Source: an uncultured Litorivicinus sp.
GTDB taxonomy: Bacteria > Pseudomonadota > Gammaproteobacteria > Pseudomonadales > Litorivicinaceae
Assembly (NCBI GenBank): GCA_902558075.1
Contig: CACECO010000002.1
Span: forward strand, 62,001 to 126,000
DNA: 64,000 nt
Direction of reading: 5' to 3'
In this document: positions 3,778 to 55,253 of the stretch, piece by piece
How positions within the stretch are numbered: position 1 is the stretch's first letter
Layout of the letters: each line of letters opens with the position of its first letter
Position numbers and translations under genes: made by a program
Notes under the pieces: generated by a model
Told to the model about the DNA's origin: nothing
Databases searched by the model: none
The model's input: only the letters and a program-made list of their open reading frames with translations

Positions 3778-5520
3778 ATGAAGGACGCCGTCGCTGGGCT
3801 ATTTGAACAAGCGCTCGATCAACTCATCGCTCAAGGCATCATTGATGTGGCAGATCGTAAACCCGTTCAGATTGAAAATACCCGTGATCCTGCTCATGGA
3901 GATCTTGCAACCAATGTGGCCATGATGCACGGAAAAGCGGCCAAAATGGCGCCTCGCGCACTTGCGGAGTTAGTCCTCGAACAACTACCTCAATCAGACA
4001 GTGTCCAGTCAACAGAGATTGCAGGACCAGGGTTTATTAATGTTCGTCTGGCAAAAGGAGCAGCATTTGAACCAGTGATCCGGTGCCTAACAGAGTACCA
4101 CCAATTTGGATTTCGCAAAGCAACCAACGAGCGCGTGCAAGTTGAGTTTGTCTCAGCCAACCCAACCGGACCGCTGCATGTTGGACACGGCCGTGGCGCT
4201 GCTTACGGAGCGACACTGGTTAATCTGCTCAAAGCTCGCGGGCACGAGGTTGAGGCCGAATACTATGTCAATGACGCGGGCCGCCAGATGAACATTCTGG
4301 CCGTCAGCGTATTCATTCGGTATCTCGAATACGCTGGTGAATCCGTCGTTTTTCCATCAGCCGGTTACCGAGGCGATTATATTTCCAGCCTCGGCGCGAC
4401 CTTGTTTCAAAATGCTGGAGACTCACTCCAAGTTTCTCTCGACGCACTGCTCGCTGGGGTACCCACTGATTCTGAAGAGACCAAGGACGCACATATCGAC
4501 GGATTAATTCAGAATGCCAAAGGATCACTTGGCGACAACTGGCTCAAGCCTTTTGATTTTGCCCTAACAGCGATTCTTGATGACATTAAAGATGATTTAT
4601 CTGAATTTGGTGCAGACTTTGACGCGTGGTTTAGCGAGAAATCTCTCGTCACATCTGGCGAAATTGAGCAGGCCATCGCAACACTGGAAGAGCGCGGTCA
4701 TCTCTACAAACAAGGCGGCGCAATTTGGTTCAGATCAACAGACTTTGGCGATGATAAAGATCGCGTGATCCGCAGAGACAACGGTGAAACAACCTATTTT
4801 GCAAGTGATATCGCCTACATTGTCAACAAATTTTCACGTGGATTTGACCGCATTATTTACGTGTGGGGTGCTGACCATCATGGCTACATCGTGCGAATTA
4901 AAGCGGCAGCGCAAGCGCTCGGTTTTAATCCAGAGCGCCTCACGGTTCGTCTCGTCCAATTCGCGATCCTCTATAAAGATGGCGAGCGGCTTCAGATGTC
5001 AACCCGCTCAGGTTCATTCGTGACTTTGAGAGAGCTACGGGACGACGTTGGTCGCGATGCATGCCGTTATTTCTATGTCATGCGCAACGCGGACCAACAC
5101 TTGGATTTTGACCTGTCGCTCGCGACAAGCCAGTCAAAAGATAATCCGGTCTACTACATCCAATATGCACATGCGCGAATCTGTCGCGTGTTTGAGGTCT
5201 TGGAGGGACAACCATTTGACGAGCAACGCGGTCTCGATCATCTAACATCATTAGTCACCCGGCAAGAGCTGGACTTAGCAACTGCAATAGGGCGATTCCC
5301 GGAAGTGGTTGGTAAAGCGGCTGATTCGTTAGAAGCGCATACGATTTGCTATTATTTGCAGGATCTCGCAGCCGATTTCCACCGCTGGTACAACGGAACG
5401 CGTCTACTGGTTGATGATGGCGATCTGCGTGATGCTCGCTTGGCGCTGGCCAAGGCGGTGCAAACAGTTATTCGTAACGGTCTTGATCTACTCGGTGTGA
5501 GCTCCCCAAGGTCCATGTGA
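3778..5520 (+). CDS. argS: Arginyl-tRNA synthetase
   Basis: A class I aminoacyl-tRNA synthetase of 580 aa that charges tRNA-Arg in the cytoplasm. The N-terminal additional domain precedes the HIGH-type motif PTGPLHVGHGRG at about residues 129-140. The KMSKS-equivalent loop is GERLQMSTRSG. The DALR anticodon-binding domain is C-terminal. GGAGG precedes the ATG (tggaGGGACactATG). The stop overlaps the next start as ATGA, so the SPOR gene is translationally coupled. Confidence 0.97.
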   Translation: MKDAVAGLFEQALDQLIAQGIIDVADRKPVQIENTRDPAHGDLATNVAMMHGKAAKMAPRALAELVLEQLPQSDSVQSTEIAGPGFINVRLAKGAAFEPVIRCLTEYHQFGFRKATNERVQVEFVSANPTGPLHVGHGRGAAYGATLVNLLKARGHEVEAEYYVNDAGRQMNILAVSVFIRYLEYAGESVVFPSAGYRGDYISSLGATLFQNAGDSLQVSLDALLAGVPTDSEETKDAHIDGLIQNAKGSLGDNWLKPFDFALTAILDDIKDDLSEFGADFDAWFSEKSLVTSGEIEQAIATLEERGHLYKQGGAIWFRSTDFGDDKDRVIRRDNGETTYFASDIAYIVNKFSRGFDRIIYVWGADHHGYIVRIKAAAQALGFNPERLTVRLVQFAILYKDGERLQMSTRSGSFVTLRELRDDVGRDACRYFYVMRNADQHLDFDLSLATSQSKDNPVYYIQYAHARICRVFEVLEGQPFDEQRGLDHLTSLVTRQELDLATAIGRFPEVVGKAADSLEAHTICYYLQDLAADFHRWYNGTRLLVDDGDLRDARLALAKAVQTVIRNGLDLLGVSSPRSM

Positions 5521-6113
5521 TGCGAGATTATTCGACTCAAGCAGCTCGACACAGACGCTCTGAAAAGAAAGAGATAAGCGCTGTTGTTGGAATCACTTTG
5601 AGTATCTTGCTACTTGGCTCTGTCGCAACCGGGCTTATTTGGCTCAATAAGCTTACATCGCCACAATATCCGGCAGAATCGCAACAACCAGAAGCTCAGG
5701 TTACAGAGCCTCAATCCCCGGAAGTTAGAACACCAACCGACCCAGAACAAACAACAACCGTTCAGCAAGAGATACCGAAGGCACCGGAGAACTTTTACAC
5801 TTTCTATGAGTTGTTGATTACAGGGGAAGTCCCCATTGATATCGAGGCGGGACAATCCCGAGATGAAGCCGTCTCTGAGACGCTCAAAAGCACATTGATA
5901 CAAGTTGCGGCATTTAGGACAGCTGAAGCCGCTGATGACACTCGCGTAGCTCTATTATTTTTGGATTTAAAAGCGCGGGTGATTCCACCAAGTGAAATAA
6001 ACGGCGGATGGTATCGAATCGTACTTGGTCCATTTAAAACCGTCCGCGAAATGCGTGCTGCGGCCGATGTACTGACAAAAAATGGATACAGTGTACTCGT
6101 TCGAAGGGAGTAA
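5517..6113 (+). CDS. SPOR-domain inner-membrane protein (FtsN-like)
   Basis: A 198-aa bitopic protein. It has a short cytoplasmic segment, one transmembrane helix (about residues 22-45, [17 protein letters not shown]), a Pro/Gln/Glu-rich periplasmic linker, and a C-terminal SPOR domain (about residues 122-198, [14 protein letters not shown] ... WYRIVLGPF). SPOR domains bind denuded septal peptidoglycan. Its position just upstream of hslVU matches ftsN in enterobacteria and the SPOR gene in Pseudomonas, which suggests a divisome role. The short FtsN essential region was not recognised, so I leave the symbol blank. Confidence 0.88.
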
Positions 6114-45254: not shown

Positions 45255-45599
45255 ATGCGCACGCCCCGTCTCAAGCTCGCAATAGTGCTCAGCGACAACG
45301 ATACGCTTCTCGGCTCAGGGAAAATAGCCCTCCTCAAAGCGATTCAAAAAGAGCACTCGCTCTCCAAGGCTGCAAAGTCAATTAACATGTCATATCGACG
45401 CGCATGGCTCCTAATCCAAGAATTGAATAACTCGCTCAGAGAGCCGGTATTAATCACTCATACTGGTGGCCAGTCCGGTGGTGGGAGCGAATTAACCGAG
45501 GTGGCGAATCAAATAATTGAGGTTTATGAACGTCTCAACAAAGAGGCACTAGACGCAACCCAAGCTACCCGCGAATCAATCGCCTCGTTGCTACGATAA
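45255..45599 (+). CDS. ModE-like winged-helix regulator without ligand domain
   Basis: A 114-aa protein. It has the LysR-type HTH of ModE: GSGKIALLKAIQKEHSLSKAAKSINMSYRRAWLLIQELN. Next comes a GGQSGGGSELT turn typical of the ModE N-terminal domain. The molybdate-binding TOBE domains of full ModE are absent, as in stand-alone ModE-N proteins. It is probably a small DNA-binding regulator, possibly of the neighbours. The ATG at 45255 sits 2 bp after the preceding stop. Its end overlaps tpx by 9 bp. Confidence 0.85.
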   Translation: MRTPRLKLAIVLSDNDTLLGSGKIALLKAIQKEHSLSKAAKSINMSYRRAWLLIQELNNSLREPVLITHTGGQSGGGSELTEVANQIIEVYERLNKEALDATQATRESIASLLR

Positions 45600-46097
45600 T
45601 TGCAACGGAGCTAATGCCGCTTCGTAATCTGGCTCAGTGGATACCTCTTCAACCAGCTCAACATGCTTTACGATCCCAGCAGGATCAATTACGACCACCG
45701 CCCTGGCAGTCAGACCACGTCTGATGCCCGTCAGGACCGTTACTCCGTAATCATCAGAAAACGTTGATCTAAAGGTGGAAGCTGTCGTTACCCTATCTAG
45801 GCCCTCTGAGGCACAAAATCGTTTTTGGGCATATGGCAAATCCGCGCTAACGCACAAGACTGCGGTATCATTTAAAGATGCTAGTTCTTCGTTGAATCTG
45901 CGAGTACTCGTGGCACATGTAGGAGTATCGATGGAAGGAAAAATATTTAGAACAAGATTTTGACCCACAAAATCAACCAGTTGAATTTCACTGAGATCGT
46001 TTGCAGTTAGAAAAAACTCAGGTGCTTTTTCACCTACAACCGGCAGGTTTCCTTTGACATCGACGATTTCACCCCGCCATCCGATCTTAACTGTCAT
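45591..46097 (-). CDS. tpx: Thiol peroxidase (atypical 2-Cys peroxiredoxin Tpx)
   Basis: A 168-aa peroxiredoxin that reduces hydroperoxides with thioredoxin. The peroxidatic Cys is in DTPTCATS and the resolving Cys in RFCASEG, the spacing expected for Tpx. LPVVGEKAPEF is the usual N-terminal block. Next to msrAB it forms an oxidative-damage unit. Confidence 0.95.
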   Translation of the reverse strand: MTVKIGWRGEIVDVKGNLPVVGEKAPEFFLTANDLSEIQLVDFVGQNLVLNIFPSIDTPTCATSTRRFNEELASLNDTAVLCVSADLPYAQKRFCASEGLDRVTTASTFRSTFSDDYGVTVLTGIRRGLTARAVVVIDPAGIVKHVELVEEVSTEPDYEAALAPLQLS

Positions 46098-46147
46098 ATC
46101 GATTTCCTCCTACCAAGACTCTTCAGGTGGCGGTTTTTGGCTGTTTT

Positions 46148-47215
46148 TCAATTCCGAGCTGCTGAGAATTGTATTAAGTATCTTTCATATCCACGCGCTC
46201 GTAGCTGTGATACCGGGATAAATTCCAAGGCCGCAGAATTGATACAGTAGCGTAACCCAGTTGGTTCTGGGCCGTCTGGAAAAACATGGCCAAGATGTGA
46301 GTCGCCAAATTTAGAGCGCACCTCGACACGCTTCATCCATAGCTTTGTGTCATCTTTTTCGACGATATGTTGCGCCTCAAGCGGCTGCCAAAATGAAGGC
46401 CACCCAGTTCCCGAATCGTATTTATGCAACGAGCTGAACAGCGGTTCGCCACTTACTACATCCACGTAAATACCGTCCACTTTTTGATTCCAAAACTCAT
46501 TTTGAAACGGAGGTTCCGTGCCATCTTCTTGTGTCACTTGATATTGCAGCGGGGACAGTCGCGCACGAATATCTTTAACACTCGGCTTCCGATAGTTACT
46601 TTTCTTAGGACCTGTCTCGCTAAACACCTGAAACGCCTCGTTTTCTGACCACTCTCGGTTTAAGAACTGATCCCGCCCTGAGCGGTATCGATAGAATTTA
46701 TATTGAAGTGTATTACTTTTGTAGTAATCCTGATGATAATCCTCAGCTCGGTAAAAAGTTGGGGCAGGCAGGATCTCTGTGACGATTGGGGCATCGAAAA
46801 TTTTTGAGGCGGCCAAACGCTTTTTTGATTCCAGAGCCAGTGCTTTCTGCTCATCTGAATGCGTAAAAATCACTGTTCGGTATGGCGAACCACGGTCAAC
46901 AAATTGTCCGCCAGCATCGGTGGGATCTATCTGTTTCCAAAAAGTATTAAGTAACGTTCGATAATCGACGATTCGCGGATCATAAGTCACTTCGACTACT
47001 TCAATGTGGCCTGTATCGCCCGTGGTGACCTGCGCGTATGTTGGGTTAGGTATCGATCCACCCGAATACCCAGAGATAACAGAACTCACCCCATGGATGG
47101 ACTCAAATGGCGGCTCCATACACCAAAAACATCCTCCACCAAATGTCGCTTTTTCTGTTTCAGCCAGTAATGAAGAAGAGGCTAGCCAACACAACGTCAT
47201 GAGTGCTTTTTTCAT
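46148..47215 (-). CDS. msrAB: Periplasmic bifunctional methionine sulfoxide reductase MsrAB
   Basis: A 355-aa fusion with a signal peptide ([15 protein letters not shown]). MsrA (about residues 20-180) has [12 protein letters not shown] with the catalytic Cys. MsrB (about residues 215-345) has [28 protein letters not shown] and the catalytic Cys in RYCINSAAL. It repairs both S and R forms of methionine sulfoxide in exported proteins. The signal peptide separates it from cytosolic MsrA/B. It lies between the EamA transporter and tpx, all on the minus strand. Confidence 0.94.
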
Positions 47216-48188: not shown

Positions 48189-50243
48189 ATGCAAACCCCA
48201 ACGACAGACAATGCTTGGCTCAGAGCCGCCAACTGGAGGGAAGTTCTGGATGACCCAGAGTCACTGCCTCCTGAGATTCGGAGCTTTCTCCAGTCGCAGA
48301 ATGAAACAGCAGAATCTTGGCTCGGCGGTCCTGGCTCGCGTCAGTGGATCATCGATGAACTGAAAGCAGCCATTCGTGATCGTGACGATTCAGTCCCAGT
48401 CGAAGATGGTGACTACAGCTATTGGCAACGGTTTATTGAGGGTGCGGAACATCCTGACTTTCTGCGCCAGACGCATCAGAGTGATCCCGAGATTTTACTG
48501 TGCGGTGATGATCGAGCAGCTAATCATCCTTACTACGATATCGGTGCTGCGGATCACTCTCCGAATCATGAATTGTTCGCTGTCACGGAAGATAGGCAAG
48601 GTTCTGAGCGCTATACCCTCACACTCTTTAAAGCTGGCTGTCAGAATCCAATCGAATCCCCTCTCACGGATTGTCGCGGCGATTTCGAATGGAGTACCGA
48701 CAGTCGCAAGTTGCTGTACACACGACTTGATGAGAACCAGCGCCCGAGTACTGTCTGGTGCCATACAATCGGTACACAGCAAACAGATGACCACCTGGTC
48801 TATCGATTAGAGCATCCAGGTCGTTTTATCGGATTGGGTAGAACAAGCTCTGACGCCTGGATCACGATCGACATTCACGATCATCAAACCAACCAGAGTT
48901 TTTTGTTACCAGCAGACCTCGATAACCTCTGTCCAATTGCTGTCACGGATTGGATCGAGGGACTTGAATACGAACTTGAACATGCTGATCCCTACCTAAT
49001 TATTCGTGGTAATCATGGGTATGAGGATTTTGCACTATACCGGGCGCCAAAACCGACAGCGGAAACTCGGAGTAACCCGGAAGCCTGGGACACGCTTTGG
49101 ATCCCTAAAAAGGGTGCCTTATTCAGTGATTATGAAGTCCTCGAGAATCACTGGGTCATTGAATACTCAGAGGAAGGCTGCGGTCGTTATCTGATCGCTG
49201 AGCCAAACCCAACAGCATTCGAAATCCGCCAAGAACTCGAGTTATCGACCTCGATTCATGATACGCACCTAGATCCGCTACCTGGATATCACCGCGATAT
49301 GATTCGAATGCTGATCTCAACGCCAGCAATGCCCCCCGAGGTGCGTGAAATTGATCTGACGACTGGAAATTTCAAACAACTCAAAGTGTCTACTCCGCCC
49401 AATGGTCATGATAATTCGAACTACATCGTGCAGCGATCGTATGGCATTTCAAGCGACGGACAACACATTCCACTGACAATCGTCCATCATCGAGACCTCA
49501 CGCCACACTCTGAAAGCCCTTTACTATTGACAGGCTATGGCGCCTACGGAATGAGTTTGACACCAGGCTTCAGTGCGAGCAGACGCACGCTGCTGACACG
49601 GGGAGTCATCCACGTCACAGCCCATGTTCGTGGCGGTATGGAAAATGGATATCAGTGGTATCGTTCTGGTCGGATGACAGACAAAGATCAATCCTTCAAC
49701 GATTTCATTGGCGCCGCCGAAACATTGATTCGGGATGGCTGGACTTCCGCTGGAAACATTATTCTGCATGGCGGCAGCGCTGGCGGTTTATTGGTGGGTA
49801 CGACGGTCATGCGCCGACCTGAGCTGTTCAGAGGCGTGATCGCAGACGTCCCTTTCGTCGATGTACTCGAAACGATGCTAGACGCCGACTTGCCACTCAC
49901 GCCACCAGAATGGCCGGAGTGGGGCAACCCCATTGAATCAATGGATGCCAAACGCAGACTGGGCCACTTATCGCCAACACAGATGGTCGAAAAACGGCCC
50001 TATCCTTGTATTCTTGCAACCGCTGGACTCACGGATCCGCGAGTAACGTATTGGGAGCCCGCACGATGGATTCATCGTCTTCAGGCAATTGCCGAGGGTG
50101 GTCCATTTCTCTTATATACCGAGCTCAATGCCGGGCACGGAGGACCAAGCGGACGCTATGCCGGCCTACATGATATTGCCCGAATCTATCAGGCAGTGAT
50201 CCAGTTATTTGATTTACCAAAGGAAGCGCCCTATGCCATTTAA
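48189..50243 (+). CDS. Prolyl oligopeptidase-family serine peptidase (oligopeptidase B-like)
   Basis: A 684-aa S9A peptidase. The N-terminal beta-propeller is recognisable in its SPNHELFAV and DFEWSTDSRKLLYT repeats. The catalytic domain has GYGAYGMSLTP, HVRGGMENG and the Ser in GGSAGGLLVG. The Asp is in GLTDPRVTYWEP and the His in NAGHGGPSG. The acidic pocket and REDE-type residues fit oligopeptidase B. I start at the ATG at 48189; the frame is open to 47769, but that part overlaps the EamA gene. It cleaves small peptides in the cytoplasm. Confidence 0.9.
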   Translation: MQTPTTDNAWLRAANWREVLDDPESLPPEIRSFLQSQNETAESWLGGPGSRQWIIDELKAAIRDRDDSVPVEDGDYSYWQRFIEGAEHPDFLRQTHQSDPEILLCGDDRAANHPYYDIGAADHSPNHELFAVTEDRQGSERYTLTLFKAGCQNPIESPLTDCRGDFEWSTDSRKLLYTRLDENQRPSTVWCHTIGTQQTDDHLVYRLEHPGRFIGLGRTSSDAWITIDIHDHQTNQSFLLPADLDNLCPIAVTDWIEGLEYELEHADPYLIIRGNHGYEDFALYRAPKPTAETRSNPEAWDTLWIPKKGALFSDYEVLENHWVIEYSEEGCGRYLIAEPNPTAFEIRQELELSTSIHDTHLDPLPGYHRDMIRMLISTPAMPPEVREIDLTTGNFKQLKVSTPPNGHDNSNYIVQRSYGISSDGQHIPLTIVHHRDLTPHSESPLLLTGYGAYGMSLTPGFSASRRTLLTRGVIHVTAHVRGGMENGYQWYRSGRMTDKDQSFNDFIGAAETLIRDGWTSAGNIILHGGSAGGLLVGTTVMRRPELFRGVIADVPFVDVLETMLDADLPLTPPEWPEWGNPIESMDAKRRLGHLSPTQMVEKRPYPCILATAGLTDPRVTYWEPARWIHRLQAIAEGGPFLLYTELNAGHGGPSGRYAGLHDIARIYQAVIQLFDLPKEAPYAI

Positions 50244-50913
50244 GATTGATTGGCAGACGATCGACGACGTCCTACTTGATATGGACGGTACACTCCTCGA
50301 TCTTCATTATGACGCAACATTTTGGTTGAAGACTGTGTACTCAATTGTCGCAAGTTTCACTGGAGAATCTGAAACCGAGATCCGTGATCGGTTTCAAAAA
50401 GAACTGAAAAAGCACGAGGGGACACTTGCTTGGTATTGCACAGACCGTTGGGCAGAGTTCTTTGGTATCGACCTTATCGAAGCGAAAAAACAACTTGCGC
50501 ATCTTATTCGGTACCGACCACATGCGAAGCAATTTCTCGAGGCATTGCGACCTTTGCCGCTAAGAACCATCATCGCCACTAACGCGCACCCTGACGTGGT
50601 CCAACTGAAACTGGATGTTATCCCCTTAAGCACATTGGTCGATGGCATTGTTTCTAGTCATCAATATGGCGTTGCCAAAGAGCACCCAAATTTTTGGAAT
50701 GCGTTATTCGATGAGTATTCGATCGATCCAAATCGTGCGGTATTTATGGACGATTCGCCAAGAGTCTTGGACGCTGCAGATCGCGCAGGCATCCGAGAAA
50801 TTGTCGAAATTAGGCACCCCAATTTATCTGAACCACCCCGCACCAGATGGAAACATGGTATTGATGACTTCGATACGCTGTTACCTGAATTATTGGCTTT
50901 AGGACAACAATGA
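50233..50913 (+). CDS. yrfG: HAD-family hydrolase (YrfG-like nucleotidase)
   Basis: A 226-aa haloacid-dehalogenase-superfamily phosphatase. The nucleophile motif is DMDGTLLDLHYD, motif II is TNAHPD, and motif IV is MDDSPRVLDAA. E. coli YrfG hydrolyses GMP/IMP. The yrfG-hslR-hslO-pckA order is the same here. The ATG at 50233 is inside the end of the peptidase gene (11 bp overlap); the stop overlaps hslR as ATGA. Confidence 0.92.
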   Translation: MPFKIDWQTIDDVLLDMDGTLLDLHYDATFWLKTVYSIVASFTGESETEIRDRFQKELKKHEGTLAWYCTDRWAEFFGIDLIEAKKQLAHLIRYRPHAKQFLEALRPLPLRTIIATNAHPDVVQLKLDVIPLSTLVDGIVSSHQYGVAKEHPNFWNALFDEYSIDPNRAVFMDDSPRVLDAADRAGIREIVEIRHPNLSEPPRTRWKHGIDDFDTLLPELLALGQQ

Positions 50914-51296
50914 GCGAAGTAAGGCTCGATAAGTGGTTGTGGGCAGCTCGTTTTTTCAAAACACGAAGGCTTGCTCGTGATGCCATTGATGGCGGCAAGA
51001 TCCACATTGATGATGTTAAAGCAAAACCATCCAAGGTAGTTACACCAGGTCTCGAAATTGAAATTTCGAGAGGACAAACCGATATGACTGTGATCGTACG
51101 CAGTGTTCGTGAAGATCGTCGGCCTGCACCTGAAGCACAACTACTTTACGAAGAGACTCCCGACTCGATTCAAAAGCGTGAGACAAAAAAGGATTTGAAT
51201 CGGTTTTCTCGTGCAGGATTCCAGCCGGCAGATCATCGTCCAAATAAACGGGAACGCCGCCAGATGACCAAGTTAAAAGGAATTTTTAATGACTGA
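50910..51296 (+). CDS. hslR: Heat-shock protein Hsp15, ribosome-associated S4-domain protein
   Basis: A 128-aa S4 RNA-binding protein. VRLDKWLWAARFFKTRRLARDAIDGG is the S4 domain (I quote its ends only: VRLDKWLWAA and KIHIDD). A basic C-terminal tail (NKRERRQMTK) helps bind the 50S subunit. It recycles nascent-chain-carrying large subunits after heat shock. It overlaps both neighbours slightly, in the conserved heat-shock cluster. Confidence 0.95.
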   Translation: MSEVRLDKWLWAARFFKTRRLARDAIDGGKIHIDDVKAKPSKVVTPGLEIEISRGQTDMTVIVRSVREDRRPAPEAQLLYEETPDSIQKRETKKDLNRFSRAGFQPADHRPNKRERRQMTKLKGIFND

Positions 51297-52177
51297 TCTA
51301 ACAGATGACCAAGATTCAGTCCGCCGTTATCTGTGTGACCTAGTACCGGATGCACGACTCATGACCGTGCACCTTGGCAAAACCAAAAATAAAATGCTTG
51401 ATCATCAGAAAATGCCTATGGTTGTCAAAACTTTGTGTGAAGAACTCGTTGCAGCAGCCTGTCTTCTATCCCATATGCTGAAATTTGATGGCCAAATGAT
51501 TCTTCCGATTAAAGGTTCTGGGCCAATTACAATGATGGTCGCTGAATGCTCCTCCGAAGGCCACATTCGATCGACAGCTCAGTGGGCTGAAGTTGGGAAC
51601 GCAAGCACCTTTGAGGACCTTGTTGGAACAGGCTATTTAGCAGTCACCGTAGATCCGCGACAGGGAGCGATACCAAGGTATCGTTCCATTGGAATCAGGC
51701 TCGATCTCGGGTTGCCTTAATCACTATTTTGAGAATTCTGAACAATTGGACACCAAGTTGTGGCTCGCCACCAACCAATTGACTGTTGGAGGGCTATTGA
51801 TCCAACGAATCCCAGAAGAAGGTGGGCAATCGCTTCAAGGATACTCAAACTGGGAGACACTCTCGACACTCGCCAACACTATTACTGATCACGAGCTTGC
51901 CTCGGACGCAGGTCCACTTCTGATTTATAAGTTATTTCATGAACTGGATCCTCGGGGTTTTGATCCATGGACCGTTGAGTTCGGCTGCTCGTGCTCTAGG
52001 GAACGAGCCGCCCGTGCACTGAGAGCGCTTGGCGAAACAGAGCTTAAACAACTGTTCATAGAACAGCCTTCACTCACGCTCGATTGCCATTTTTGCGGAC
52101 AGGTATACCAATATGATCAGGCTGACTTAGAATGGCTGCTATCTGATCAGCCACCGAGGTCTGACACGTTACAATGA
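51289..52177 (+). pseudogene. hslO: Hsp33 redox chaperone gene with a single frameshift
   Basis: The two parts of Hsp33 lie in adjacent frames. The first (51289-51720) reads correctly through AVTVDPRQG, then runs out of family sequence and stops at 51718-51720. The second frame gives RERYQGIVPLESGS from about 51662, matching the Hsp33 core, and continues to 52177. It has the zinc-switch cysteines CSC and CHFC. The join is at about 51661-51667, where two bases seem to be missing (or one extra). Apart from this the gene is full length and well conserved, so it could be a sequencing error, a recent mutation or a +1 recoding site. Hsp33 is normally activated by oxidation and heat. Its stop overlaps the next gene as ATGA. 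Confidence 0.85.
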
Positions 52178-53688
52178 AAACCGATTGGGCAAGTCGTTAC
52201 GACGACCTCACCATAGCCGAACTGGTCGAACACGCACTCACCCTCGGTGAAGGTCAATTATCCGCCAAAGGCGCTTTAATCGTGTCCACCGAACGTCACT
52301 CTGAAGTGCAACGTTTCATTGTGAATGAACCCTCTGTGAGCGATGTGATTAGGGCAGATGCCCAGTTCAAACTACTCGATAGCGGAGTTTTCAAATCAAT
52401 TTGGGAACGCGTCAAAGACGATATTGTTGAACGCGACCGCTATCGAATCCATGCTCAAATGGGCGTCAATGCAGAGATCGCTGTTCCACTCGAAATGACA
52501 ACTTTAACTGCGTGGCACGCCATGAGCTGTCATCATTTGTGCCATGTCCCCGAAGAGTTTAACCCGCGCGAAAAGCCGGAATGGAAATTGATCTGGGCAC
52601 CCATTTCTAGTTTTGGTGACGCAGAGACTCTCACGCATGAGGGCGGTATCGTCTTAATCCACGTCGGAAAACGTCGGATTTTGATGGGAGGAGATCTCAC
52701 AACCGGTGAAATGCGTCGAACCTTGCTCACACTTCTGGGGTTGATCCTACCTGAAAAAGACACACTGCCTTTGCACGGTGCCGCTTCTCAAGGCGATGGA
52801 GAAATTAGTCTATTCTTAGGTCCAGCCGGTACTCAAAAAACAACCTGGGCTCTTCGTTGTGGCCAATTGATTGGTGACCGCGGATTATCTTGGTCAAATG
52901 CAGGATTGCATCGACTTGCCGATGGCTGTCGACTGCACCTGGATCACAATCTCCCGATTAGTCTTGATGAAGCATTACGATTTGGCACCATCGCCGAAAA
53001 CTTAGCACTAGGGAACGACCGCGAGCCGCTACTGACAGATCCCGAGGCTGACTCAGCAGTGCGCATACCCACACACTTAGTTCTTCCTCTGACGCGACTC
53101 AACGCCAATCAAGCGTCTGATACGCCAGGTCCAAGCCAATTAGTCATTCTCGCGACAGACCCCTTAGGCGTCCTACCTCCGCTCTCCAAAATCACACGAG
53201 AGCAATGCCTTGCTTGGTTTATTTTAGGATACGGTAATCACCTAGGCCCCCAGGAAAAACGGCAGGCCGAGATCGATATTCGGTTCACACCGGGCTTCAT
53301 GGATACGCTTTTACCGAGAAATCTCGATGACTACGTCTTTATCTTAGACAACTTATTAGCAGCACACGATACGCGATGTTTTCTCGTGAATGCTGGATGG
53401 CATGGTGGACAGGCAGGGCAAGGTGACCCATTGTCCACGTCAGAAGAAAGTGCGGTCATCACAGGCATGTATTACTGCACTGATTGGGAGCCATTTGGAT
53501 CTCTTGGCCTATCAGTTCCGGCTGGTCAATCGGAAACTGCGGGTCCATGGCACCCAAGAGAGCGCTGGCCAGAGGCGAGCAACTACAATGTCAACGAGTC
53601 ACATTTGATCCAAGCAATCACAGATGAACTACAGCGGACCGAAGATCCACAGCGATGGCTAAAAGCCTTGGAAATTGAGTGCAATTAA
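52174..53688 (+). CDS. Divergent PEP carboxykinase homologue, probably catalytically altered
   Basis: A 504-aa protein homologous to ATP-dependent PEP carboxykinase, in the pckA position after hslO. The PckA skeleton is clear: GGDLTTGEMRRT, LPLHGAAS, P-loop GPAGTQKTT, LIGDRGLSW and ATDPLGVLPPLSKIT. Compared by eye with E. coli PckA, the Mn ligand Lys213 is Arg and Asp269 is Arg; only His232 is kept. Tyr207 is Thr, Arg333 is Lys, and the FEGGCYAK block reads LADGCRLHL. Nucleotide binding may survive, but decarboxylation is unlikely. It could be a regulatory pseudoenzyme or have a new substrate. The frame is intact, so it is not simply decaying. It overlaps gshA by 10 bp. Confidence 0.8.
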   Translation: MKTDWASRYDDLTIAELVEHALTLGEGQLSAKGALIVSTERHSEVQRFIVNEPSVSDVIRADAQFKLLDSGVFKSIWERVKDDIVERDRYRIHAQMGVNAEIAVPLEMTTLTAWHAMSCHHLCHVPEEFNPREKPEWKLIWAPISSFGDAETLTHEGGIVLIHVGKRRILMGGDLTTGEMRRTLLTLLGLILPEKDTLPLHGAASQGDGEISLFLGPAGTQKTTWALRCGQLIGDRGLSWSNAGLHRLADGCRLHLDHNLPISLDEALRFGTIAENLALGNDREPLLTDPEADSAVRIPTHLVLPLTRLNANQASDTPGPSQLVILATDPLGVLPPLSKITREQCLAWFILGYGNHLGPQEKRQAEIDIRFTPGFMDTLLPRNLDDYVFILDNLLAAHDTRCFLVNAGWHGGQAGQGDPLSTSEESAVITGMYYCTDWEPFGSLGLSVPAGQSETAGPWHPRERWPEASNYNVNESHLIQAITDELQRTEDPQRWLKALEIECN

Positions 53689-55253
53689 AACTACCGACGA
53701 TCTCTCCGCATATCCTGCAAGAAACCCACTTCGGTGTTTTGAGCCAACTCTTGACGGGCATGCGATTTGGGCTCGAAAAAGAAGGTCTTCGTGTCGACCG
53801 GGTCTCTGGTAACCTGGCACAAACCCCACATCCAAAGGATCTTGGTTCTGCACTCACGCATCCGCACATCACCACGGATTATTCTGAGGCCCTATTAGAA
53901 TTTGTCACCGGAACGCATGAATCGCCACACGCAGCGATACAAGAACTTGAAGAACTACATATATTTGCAAGCTCCGTGCTGAAAGACGAGCGTATTTGGC
54001 CGCTATCCATGCCGTGCCAATTACCTGAATCGGACTCCGATATTCCACTTGCGTATTATGGGGAGTCCCACATTGGCCGGTTGAAAACCGTGTATCGCCG
54101 CGGACTTGGATTTCGCTATGGCAGGCAAATGCAAACCATAGCTGGGATCCATTTCAATCTGTCATTCAGTGATGATTTATGGGCTTGGAAAGCTGCACTC
54201 GACGGTCATCCCGACGGCACTGATCGTCGTCTCATTCGTGATCATGGATACTTCCACACAATTCGCAATTTTCGTCGAATCCAATGGCTAATTATGCTGC
54301 TGACCGGATCAAGCCCATCAGTTGATGAAAGCTTTCGTTTGCTTGCCACTGATCGATTTACGGTAACTGGCCGAACACGCCTCGCAGAGGGGGCAACGAG
54401 CCTCCGTATGAGCGATCTGGGCTATCAATCTGCAACGCAAGAATCAATCAATATCTGCTTCAATCGTTTGGATACTTATTGCGATACATTATCCAATGCA
54501 GTGCATCACCCGTGGCCAACCTATGAAGGCTTAGGGCTGAAAGATGACCATGGATTCAAGCAACTGAATACTGCGGTGTTACAGATTGAGAATGAGTATT
54601 ACTCAAGCATCCGGCCAAAGCGTATTCAACGATCTGGAGAACGACCTGTTCGCGCACTCATAAATCGCGGCGTTGAATATCTTGAGGTGCGTGCAATCGA
54701 TTTAAATCCATTTGCTCGCAACGGAATCTCAGAGCATGAGGCATCTTTGATTACGTTACTTATGACCGCATCAGCACTTGCAGACAGCCCACTAAATACA
54801 ACCGAGGAGTCCATCGCCATCGATGGCATCAATGCACGCACAAGTTGGGCTGGTCGGAGACCTGGACAACGATTTGATGAACACTCGACGTTCAAGCAGG
54901 CAGGTCTCAAGTTCCTCGGATCACTCGACCTGGTCGCTGAGGCTCTCAATACTGCTTTTCATACAGAAAGTTTTACAGGTGCACTCGAAGATGCGCGCTT
55001 AAGGCTCATTGGGACCTGCCCGTTACTCTCTGAAGAAATCGAACGAACGGTTATCCAAAACGGGCATTTAGAACTTGGGCTCACGCGTGCAAATCAGCAT
55101 CACGACAGTTGGCAAACAGTAAATTTAACTCCCGAAAAGTTGGCTACTATGCGGCGGGAAGCGCAAGAAAGTCTGACGACCGAACAACAAATGGCTGCAT
55201 CAAACGAGGGCTCCTTTGATGCCTTCGTTGATGCATACATTCACCAACCATAG
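53679..55253 (+). CDS. gshA: Glutamate-cysteine ligase (type 1)
   Basis: A 524-aa ATP-grasp-like enzyme that makes gamma-glutamylcysteine, the first step to glutathione. GLEKEGLRVD, TDYSEALLEFVTGTH, YGRQMQTIAGIHFNLSF and YLEVRAIDLNPF are the family blocks. The GTG start at 53679 overlaps the preceding gene by 10 bp. Glutathione would serve GrxC (21008). The stop is 1 bp before the convergent FKBP gene. Confidence 0.95.
   Translation: MQLKLPTISPHILQETHFGVLSQLLTGMRFGLEKEGLRVDRVSGNLAQTPHPKDLGSALTHPHITTDYSEALLEFVTGTHESPHAAIQELEELHIFASSVLKDERIWPLSMPCQLPESDSDIPLAYYGESHIGRLKTVYRRGLGFRYGRQMQTIAGIHFNLSFSDDLWAWKAALDGHPDGTDRRLIRDHGYFHTIRNFRRIQWLIMLLTGSSPSVDESFRLLATDRFTVTGRTRLAEGATSLRMSDLGYQSATQESINICFNRLDTYCDTLSNAVHHPWPTYEGLGLKDDHGFKQLNTAVLQIENEYYSSIRPKRIQRSGERPVRALINRGVEYLEVRAIDLNPFARNGISEHEASLITLLMTASALADSPLNTTEESIAIDGINARTSWAGRRPGQRFDEHSTFKQAGLKFLGSLDLVAEALNTAFHTESFTGALEDARLRLIGTCPLLSEEIERTVIQNGHLELGLTRANQHHDSWQTVNLTPEKLATMRREAQESLTTEQQMAASNEGSFDAFVDAYIHQP

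Follow-up and report, generated by a model that had tools for sequence, protein, structure and literature searches.

A PckA-derived gene with replaced catalytic residues holds the pckA locus across the marine OM252 clade

At the pckA locus of a 64,000-nucleotide stretch of DNA from an uncultured Litorivicinus sp. (the whole stretch analyzed, hereafter the window) lies a gene, here named pckL, whose product has lost nearly all catalytic residues of PEP carboxykinase (PEPCK) and has kept the phosphate-binding loop, and which is therefore probably a new sensor, partner protein, or enzyme. As judged from sequence, PEPCK activity has almost certainly been lost in the form found throughout this genus. 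Here an ancient metabolic enzyme has been turned, at its original locus and under selection, into something different, which makes the gene a natural example of such a conversion; it can be tested in cultured members that carry it, HIMB30 and LSUCC0096.

Results

The pckL gene is a single unbroken frame of 504 codons (Table 1), and the intact PckA homologue described in the original prediction was confirmed in frame, coordinates, and homology. The Pfam model PEPCK_ATP matched the protein over nearly its full domain with an E value of 4e-68, and the score of 230.7 bits, against a gathering score of 26.5, places it in the homologous family. By the NCBIfam models (TIGR00224 and PRK09344), the same protein scored 129 to 255 bits where cut-offs run from 369 to 815, i.e., below every enzyme cut-off. 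The closest solved structures by phmmer were ATP-dependent PEP carboxykinases, that of Thermus thermophilus (1j3b) first. An AlphaFold2 model made with 54 sequences (pLDDT 88, pTM 0.89), which replaced an earlier one made from 14 close sequences (pLDDT 38), superimposed on 1j3b with a Z score of 42.4 over 480 aligned residues and an rmsd of 2.2, giving a PEPCK fold over the whole length, and Foldseek agreed; the model may be biased towards the canonical shape because 40 of the 54 rows are canonical-type PckA from viral contigs.

Table 1. Positions in the window of pckL, its neighbors, and altered or retained sites
Feature	Position	Strand	Remarks
yrfG-like GMP/IMP nucleotidase	50209..50913	+	NCBIfam
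hslR (Hsp15)	50910..51296	+	NCBIfam
hslO (Hsp33)	51289..52177	+	NCBIfam; overlaps pckL start by 4 bases; two overlapping ORFs here
PckA-derived gene (pckL)	52174..53688	+	504 aa; PEPCK fold, catalytic residues replaced
R-loop deletion site (TGRSP, Arg65 in E. coli)	52291..52311	+	3 residues missing; G64 and R65 gapped in 17/17
New C-H-[HYQ]-L-C-H motif	52528..52545	+	C119, H120, C123, H124 invariant; canonical PckA without motif
Arg181-Arg182 replacing Lys212-Lys213 (Mn ligand/substrate lysines)	52714..52719	+	Arg invariant in all orthologues
His201 (E. coli His232), kept	52774..52776	+	alignment
P-loop GPAGTQKT	52819..52842	+	G248, G251, K254, T255 kept; L249P, S250A, G253Q
Arg236 replacing Mn ligand Asp269	52879..52881	+	Arg in 17/17
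LADGCR replacing FEGGCYAK	52915..52932	+	Lys288 deleted; alignment
His301 replacing Arg333	53074..53076	+	His in 17/17
Rewritten region matching the omega-loop lid	53227..53298	+	alignment; presumed lid, assigned from family knowledge
Deletion site, Arg449 nucleotide-binding stretch gone	53422..53442	+	alignment
gshA, glutamate-cysteine ligase	53679..55253	+	TIGR01434 above cut-off; GTG overlaps pckL end by 10 bases

Residues were compared by aligning 17 full-length orthologues with E. coli PckA, in which the Mn, substrate, and nucleotide roles of these residues are established, and with 20 other canonical PckA proteins from the order and class. In every full-length orthologue (n = 17), the Mn ligands Lys213, His232, and Asp269 are replaced by or kept as Arg, His, and Arg, respectively, and Lys212 is likewise Arg (K212R). 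Among the substrate residues, Arg65 is deleted, Tyr207 has become Thr or Ser, and Arg333 has become His in all 17; among the nucleotide residues, Lys288 and Arg449 are deleted, Glu297 is Pro, and Thr455 is Ser or Phe. The P-loop keeps invariant G248, G251, K254, and T256, with Thr or Ser at position 255, and S250A is common to the genus orthologues. Over the whole protein, 38 of the 108 positions invariant in canonical PckA are invariantly kept in the genus form and 70 are not, and 105 positions, many around the P-loop, are invariant within the genus with a residue unlike the canonical majority. The R-loop, P-loop, and omega lid have been described as active-site loops for the GTP enzyme (PMC12529880). 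The spacing of the C-H-[HYQ]-L-C-H motif is compatible with metal binding on a helix.

Several of these changes had been proposed beforehand by manual alignment. Lys213 to Arg, Asp269 to Arg, and Tyr207 to Thr all held, with the phmmer alignment to 1j3b agreeing independently, as did the retention of the P-loop and His232 (Lys254 and His232 are both present) and the rewriting of the DDEHGW and FEGGCYAK blocks, which now read DRGLSW and LADGCR. The proposed change of Arg333 to Lys was a misalignment, the position being a genus-invariant His (H301); the replacement of Lys212 by Arg and the deletion of the Arg65 loop, Lys288, and the Arg449 stretch are additions to that list. No intact Lys/His/Asp triad at other positions, the finding that would have spoken against loss of the metal site, emerged from the alignments, in which all orthologues have Arg at both positions, or from the predicted fold, which matches PEPCK end to end. 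The sequence suggests no alternative triad either: the P-loop core has just one invariant Lys, the Lys222 of the P-loop itself.

The genomic setting identifies the ancestry of the gene. In the orthologues examined, the order yrfG-hslR-hslO-pckL-gshA is kept, and in 11 of the 12 relatives examined the start codon of pckL runs into the stop of hslO, with an overlap of 4 bases. Canonical relatives of the order have hslO, then a gap of 177 to 421 bp, then pckA; from this synteny, pckL is pckA by descent and position, in agreement with the earlier placement of the gene in a conserved yrfG-hslR-hslO-pckA locus. Its link with gshA is partly inherited, given that in one relative of the class with a canonical pckA, gshA directly follows pckA. 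In a sister-genus genome (G022), hslR-hslO is followed after 118 bp by gshA without pckA; one branch of the family lost pckA and the other rewrote it. Within the window, hslO lacks 2 bases that are present in HIMB30 and AG-898-O07 and is split as a result; since 11 of 12 relatives have an intact gene, this lesion is probably an assembly error or strain-specific. A few genes upstream, the opposite strand encodes a thiol peroxidase and an MsrA/MsrB fusion (45591-47215), which form with hslO and gshA a cluster of thiol/redox genes.

The altered form is a property of one genus, the marine Litoricola/Litorivicinus or OM252 clade, which includes the isolates HIMB30 and LSUCC0096 and has been described previously (PMC8269220). 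A search of 97 relatives showed that almost every genome of the genus has one orthologue, 65 to 93% identical, and that other families of the order have canonical PckA, about 30% identical to the genus form. Full-length orthologues came from 17 genomes across the genus, one from each, and all have the same catalytic changes, so that the relatives sharing them, which the original prediction had called for, were found in 17 of 17 cases. No copy was found in two incomplete genomes of the genus (G012 and G021), in the former of which the gshA match is itself cut at a contig end. In one metagenome-assembled genome (M30B13, locus L046, about 4670-5816), hslR and gshA are intact, but between them the sequence is garbled in several frames over the end of hslO together with the first half of pckL, a pattern suggestive of a local assembly fault. 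With a profile of the genus form, scores among 391 genomes of the order fell sharply at the genus boundary, from 906 bits to 280, and among 369 genomes of the class the sole high score came from the genome of the window itself; by profile score, neither set contained the genus form outside the genus. Peptide patterns searched against one genome for each of 84,980 species returned only genus-like records, in a search that would miss distant kin.

Selection on the gene was assessed with close orthologue pairs, for which dN/dS was 0.02 to 0.23; in the same genome pairs, the values for hslR, hslO, and gshA were similar or higher in most cases. Together with the genus-wide conservation, these values exclude simple decay, which the unbroken frame had already been taken to argue against. 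Within the genus, the shell of the former active site, chosen by hand from known residues, has an invariant fraction of 0.62 compared to 0.38 elsewhere in the protein (Fisher P = 2e-4), an indication that a ligand is still in use at this site. In the tree, the sequences of the genus form group with full support in a single clade, whose stem is about 7 changes per column long (3.9 + 3.1); the end branches reach at most 0.39 changes per column, and the placement of the long branch is uncertain. The long stem and short tips record rewriting followed by constraint.

PEPCK is a textbook gluconeogenic enzyme, and annotation at the family level would credit these organisms with it. A second PEPCK homologue was found neither in the source assembly (1.5 Mb, 72% complete) nor, as a canonical PEPCK, in genus relatives that are 98 to 99% complete, which answers the earlier question of a canonical pckA elsewhere in the genome; GTP-PEPCK was likewise not found in the 11 genomes checked. 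A full PEP synthase was present in every one of the eight genus genomes checked, malic-family enzymes in eight of eight genomes checked, and PEP carboxylase in six of eight; in the sister genus, PEP synthase was full in one of three genomes and split in pieces in another. With PEP synthase and a malic-family enzyme present, PEPCK activity looks dispensable, and the gene content suggests that a route from malate through pyruvate to PEP may operate without it. As the gene at the pckA locus is almost certainly unable to perform the PEPCK reaction, carbon in these common bacterioplankton probably flows via PEP synthase. Gluconeogenesis genes are attributed to the clade in its published description, the main text of which does not name PEPCK (PMC8269220). 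One relative that is 99% complete (G020) had no PEP carboxylase family match, unlike other near-complete members of the genus.

Discussion

The explanation we consider somewhat the more probable is that the protein is a vertical descendant of PckA that lost carboxykinase chemistry and has been kept as a phosphate- or nucleotide-binding pseudoenzyme, serving as a sensor or partner protein. The ancestor would have been a pckA gene between hslO and gshA, inherited vertically, and PEPCK chemistry would have been lost before the genus radiated, with the disappearance of the R-loop that binds oxaloacetate/PEP, two of the three Mn ligands, the Lys212, Lys288, and Arg333 residues, and the Arg449 nucleotide stretch. 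The P-loop Lys/Thr persists, as does the predicted fold, and the old active site, furnished with new arginines and histidines, may bind a phosphorylated ligand such as a nucleotide or similar anion. The protein may act as a sensor or partner that is co-translated with Hsp33 and glutamate-cysteine ligase and that plausibly has its role in redox or glutathione physiology; the nearby thiol peroxidase and MsrA/MsrB fusion make a redox role reasonable as an initial guess only. Lost chemistry, a kept P-loop, constraint around that loop, and coupling to hslO and gshA together fit a ligand-binding pseudoenzyme best, while the ligand, the partner, and the redox link themselves are conjectural; with the residues that bind the nucleotide base gone, ATP binding is not assured. 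A bolder reading, which we advance only tentatively, is that the gene encodes an enzyme of an undescribed reaction or a dedicated metabolite sensor that controls glutathione/redox physiology, with a PEPCK fold whose metal site has turned to arginines and which was fixed throughout a cosmopolitan marine genus in place of PEPCK.

A neofunctionalized enzyme explains the same facts nearly as well as a ligand-binding pseudoenzyme. Here the P-loop would handle a nucleotide or phosphate donor, and R182, H201, R236, D250, R253, and H301 would catalyze a different phosphotransfer or decarboxylation, as HPr kinase performs phosphotransfer on a related fold. The retained P-loop Lys/Thr and His232 agree with such a role, as do the many genus-specific invariant residues near the P-loop and the placing of the active-site shell among the most conserved parts of the protein; high invariance near the P-loop would be expected of a working enzyme with a new reaction as well. 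We nevertheless regard it as rather unlikely, since two of the three Mn ligands have become Arg with no obvious compensating acidic pair, the nucleotide-base residues are deleted, and no substrate or pathway gap was identified. It is improbable that the protein is purely a structural scaffold or a complex subunit, e.g., of GshA, with no ligand in the old active site: overlapping genes in fixed order with gshA and hslO would suit this, and low dN/dS fits a ligand-free scaffold too, but the conserved positions cluster around the P-loop and the former active site.

That the protein is still a PEPCK, with Arg standing in for metal ligands and other residues doing the work on the substrate, seems very improbable. 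The fold, the locus, and its status as the sole PEPCK homologue in these genomes are as expected of one; however, Arg65, Tyr207, Lys212, Lys213, Asp269, Lys288, Arg333, and Arg449 are all lost together, bypass genes are present, and no pckA appears in the sister genus. Scarcely credible, finally, is a decaying gene or local sequencing artifact, to which the 2-base deletion in the neighboring hslO of the window and the broken first half of the gene in one metagenome-assembled genome might point; the gene is intact in 17 genomes, cultured isolates included, with the low dN/dS given above, and the damage in that one genome is a single garbled block with intact flanks. Sequencing error and decay were rejected on these grounds. 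The three options of the original prediction, a nucleotide-binding pseudoenzyme, a regulator, or an enzyme with a new reaction, all still stand.

Among known systems, the protein resembles ATP-dependent PckA (PF01293) in its whole predicted fold (Z of 42 to 1j3b and 40 to E. coli PckA), its position after hslO, and its P-loop Lys254, Thr/Ser255, and His232, and departs from it in the eight residues listed above, Arg65 with its loop. GTP-dependent PEPCK (PF00821) shares the fold at lower similarity (Z about 27), but identity is about 13%, and the genus genomes checked had no PF00821 gene. HPr kinase/phosphorylase is a regulatory protein with a P-loop kinase core related to PEPCK; in the predicted model, by contrast, the domain arrangement appears to be that of PEPCK over the full length, and HPr kinase was not among the fold-search matches listed, which leaves room for a distant relation. 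With catalytic motifs absent under purifying selection, the protein has the features of a pseudoenzyme, and it resembles pseudoenzymes of other families (PMC5106787, PMC10211241) in a kept fold, lost catalytic motifs, and conserved sequence, while differing from them in that it replaces the enzyme at its own locus instead of being an extra paralogue. No description of a pseudo-PEPCK or PEPCK-derived pseudoenzyme was found in the literature searched, and searches on the effects of individual mutations and on OM252 with phosphoenolpyruvate gave nothing specific.

The genus form was not found in viral contigs. PEPCK relatives that carry the canonical motifs LIGDDEH and FFGLSGTG are encoded at no fewer than 85 places in such contigs (IMG/VR, L066-L145); many lie on short contigs (about 38 to 40% identity) and some on contigs longer than 100 kb. 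These may be viral metabolic genes, giant-virus genes, or host contamination.
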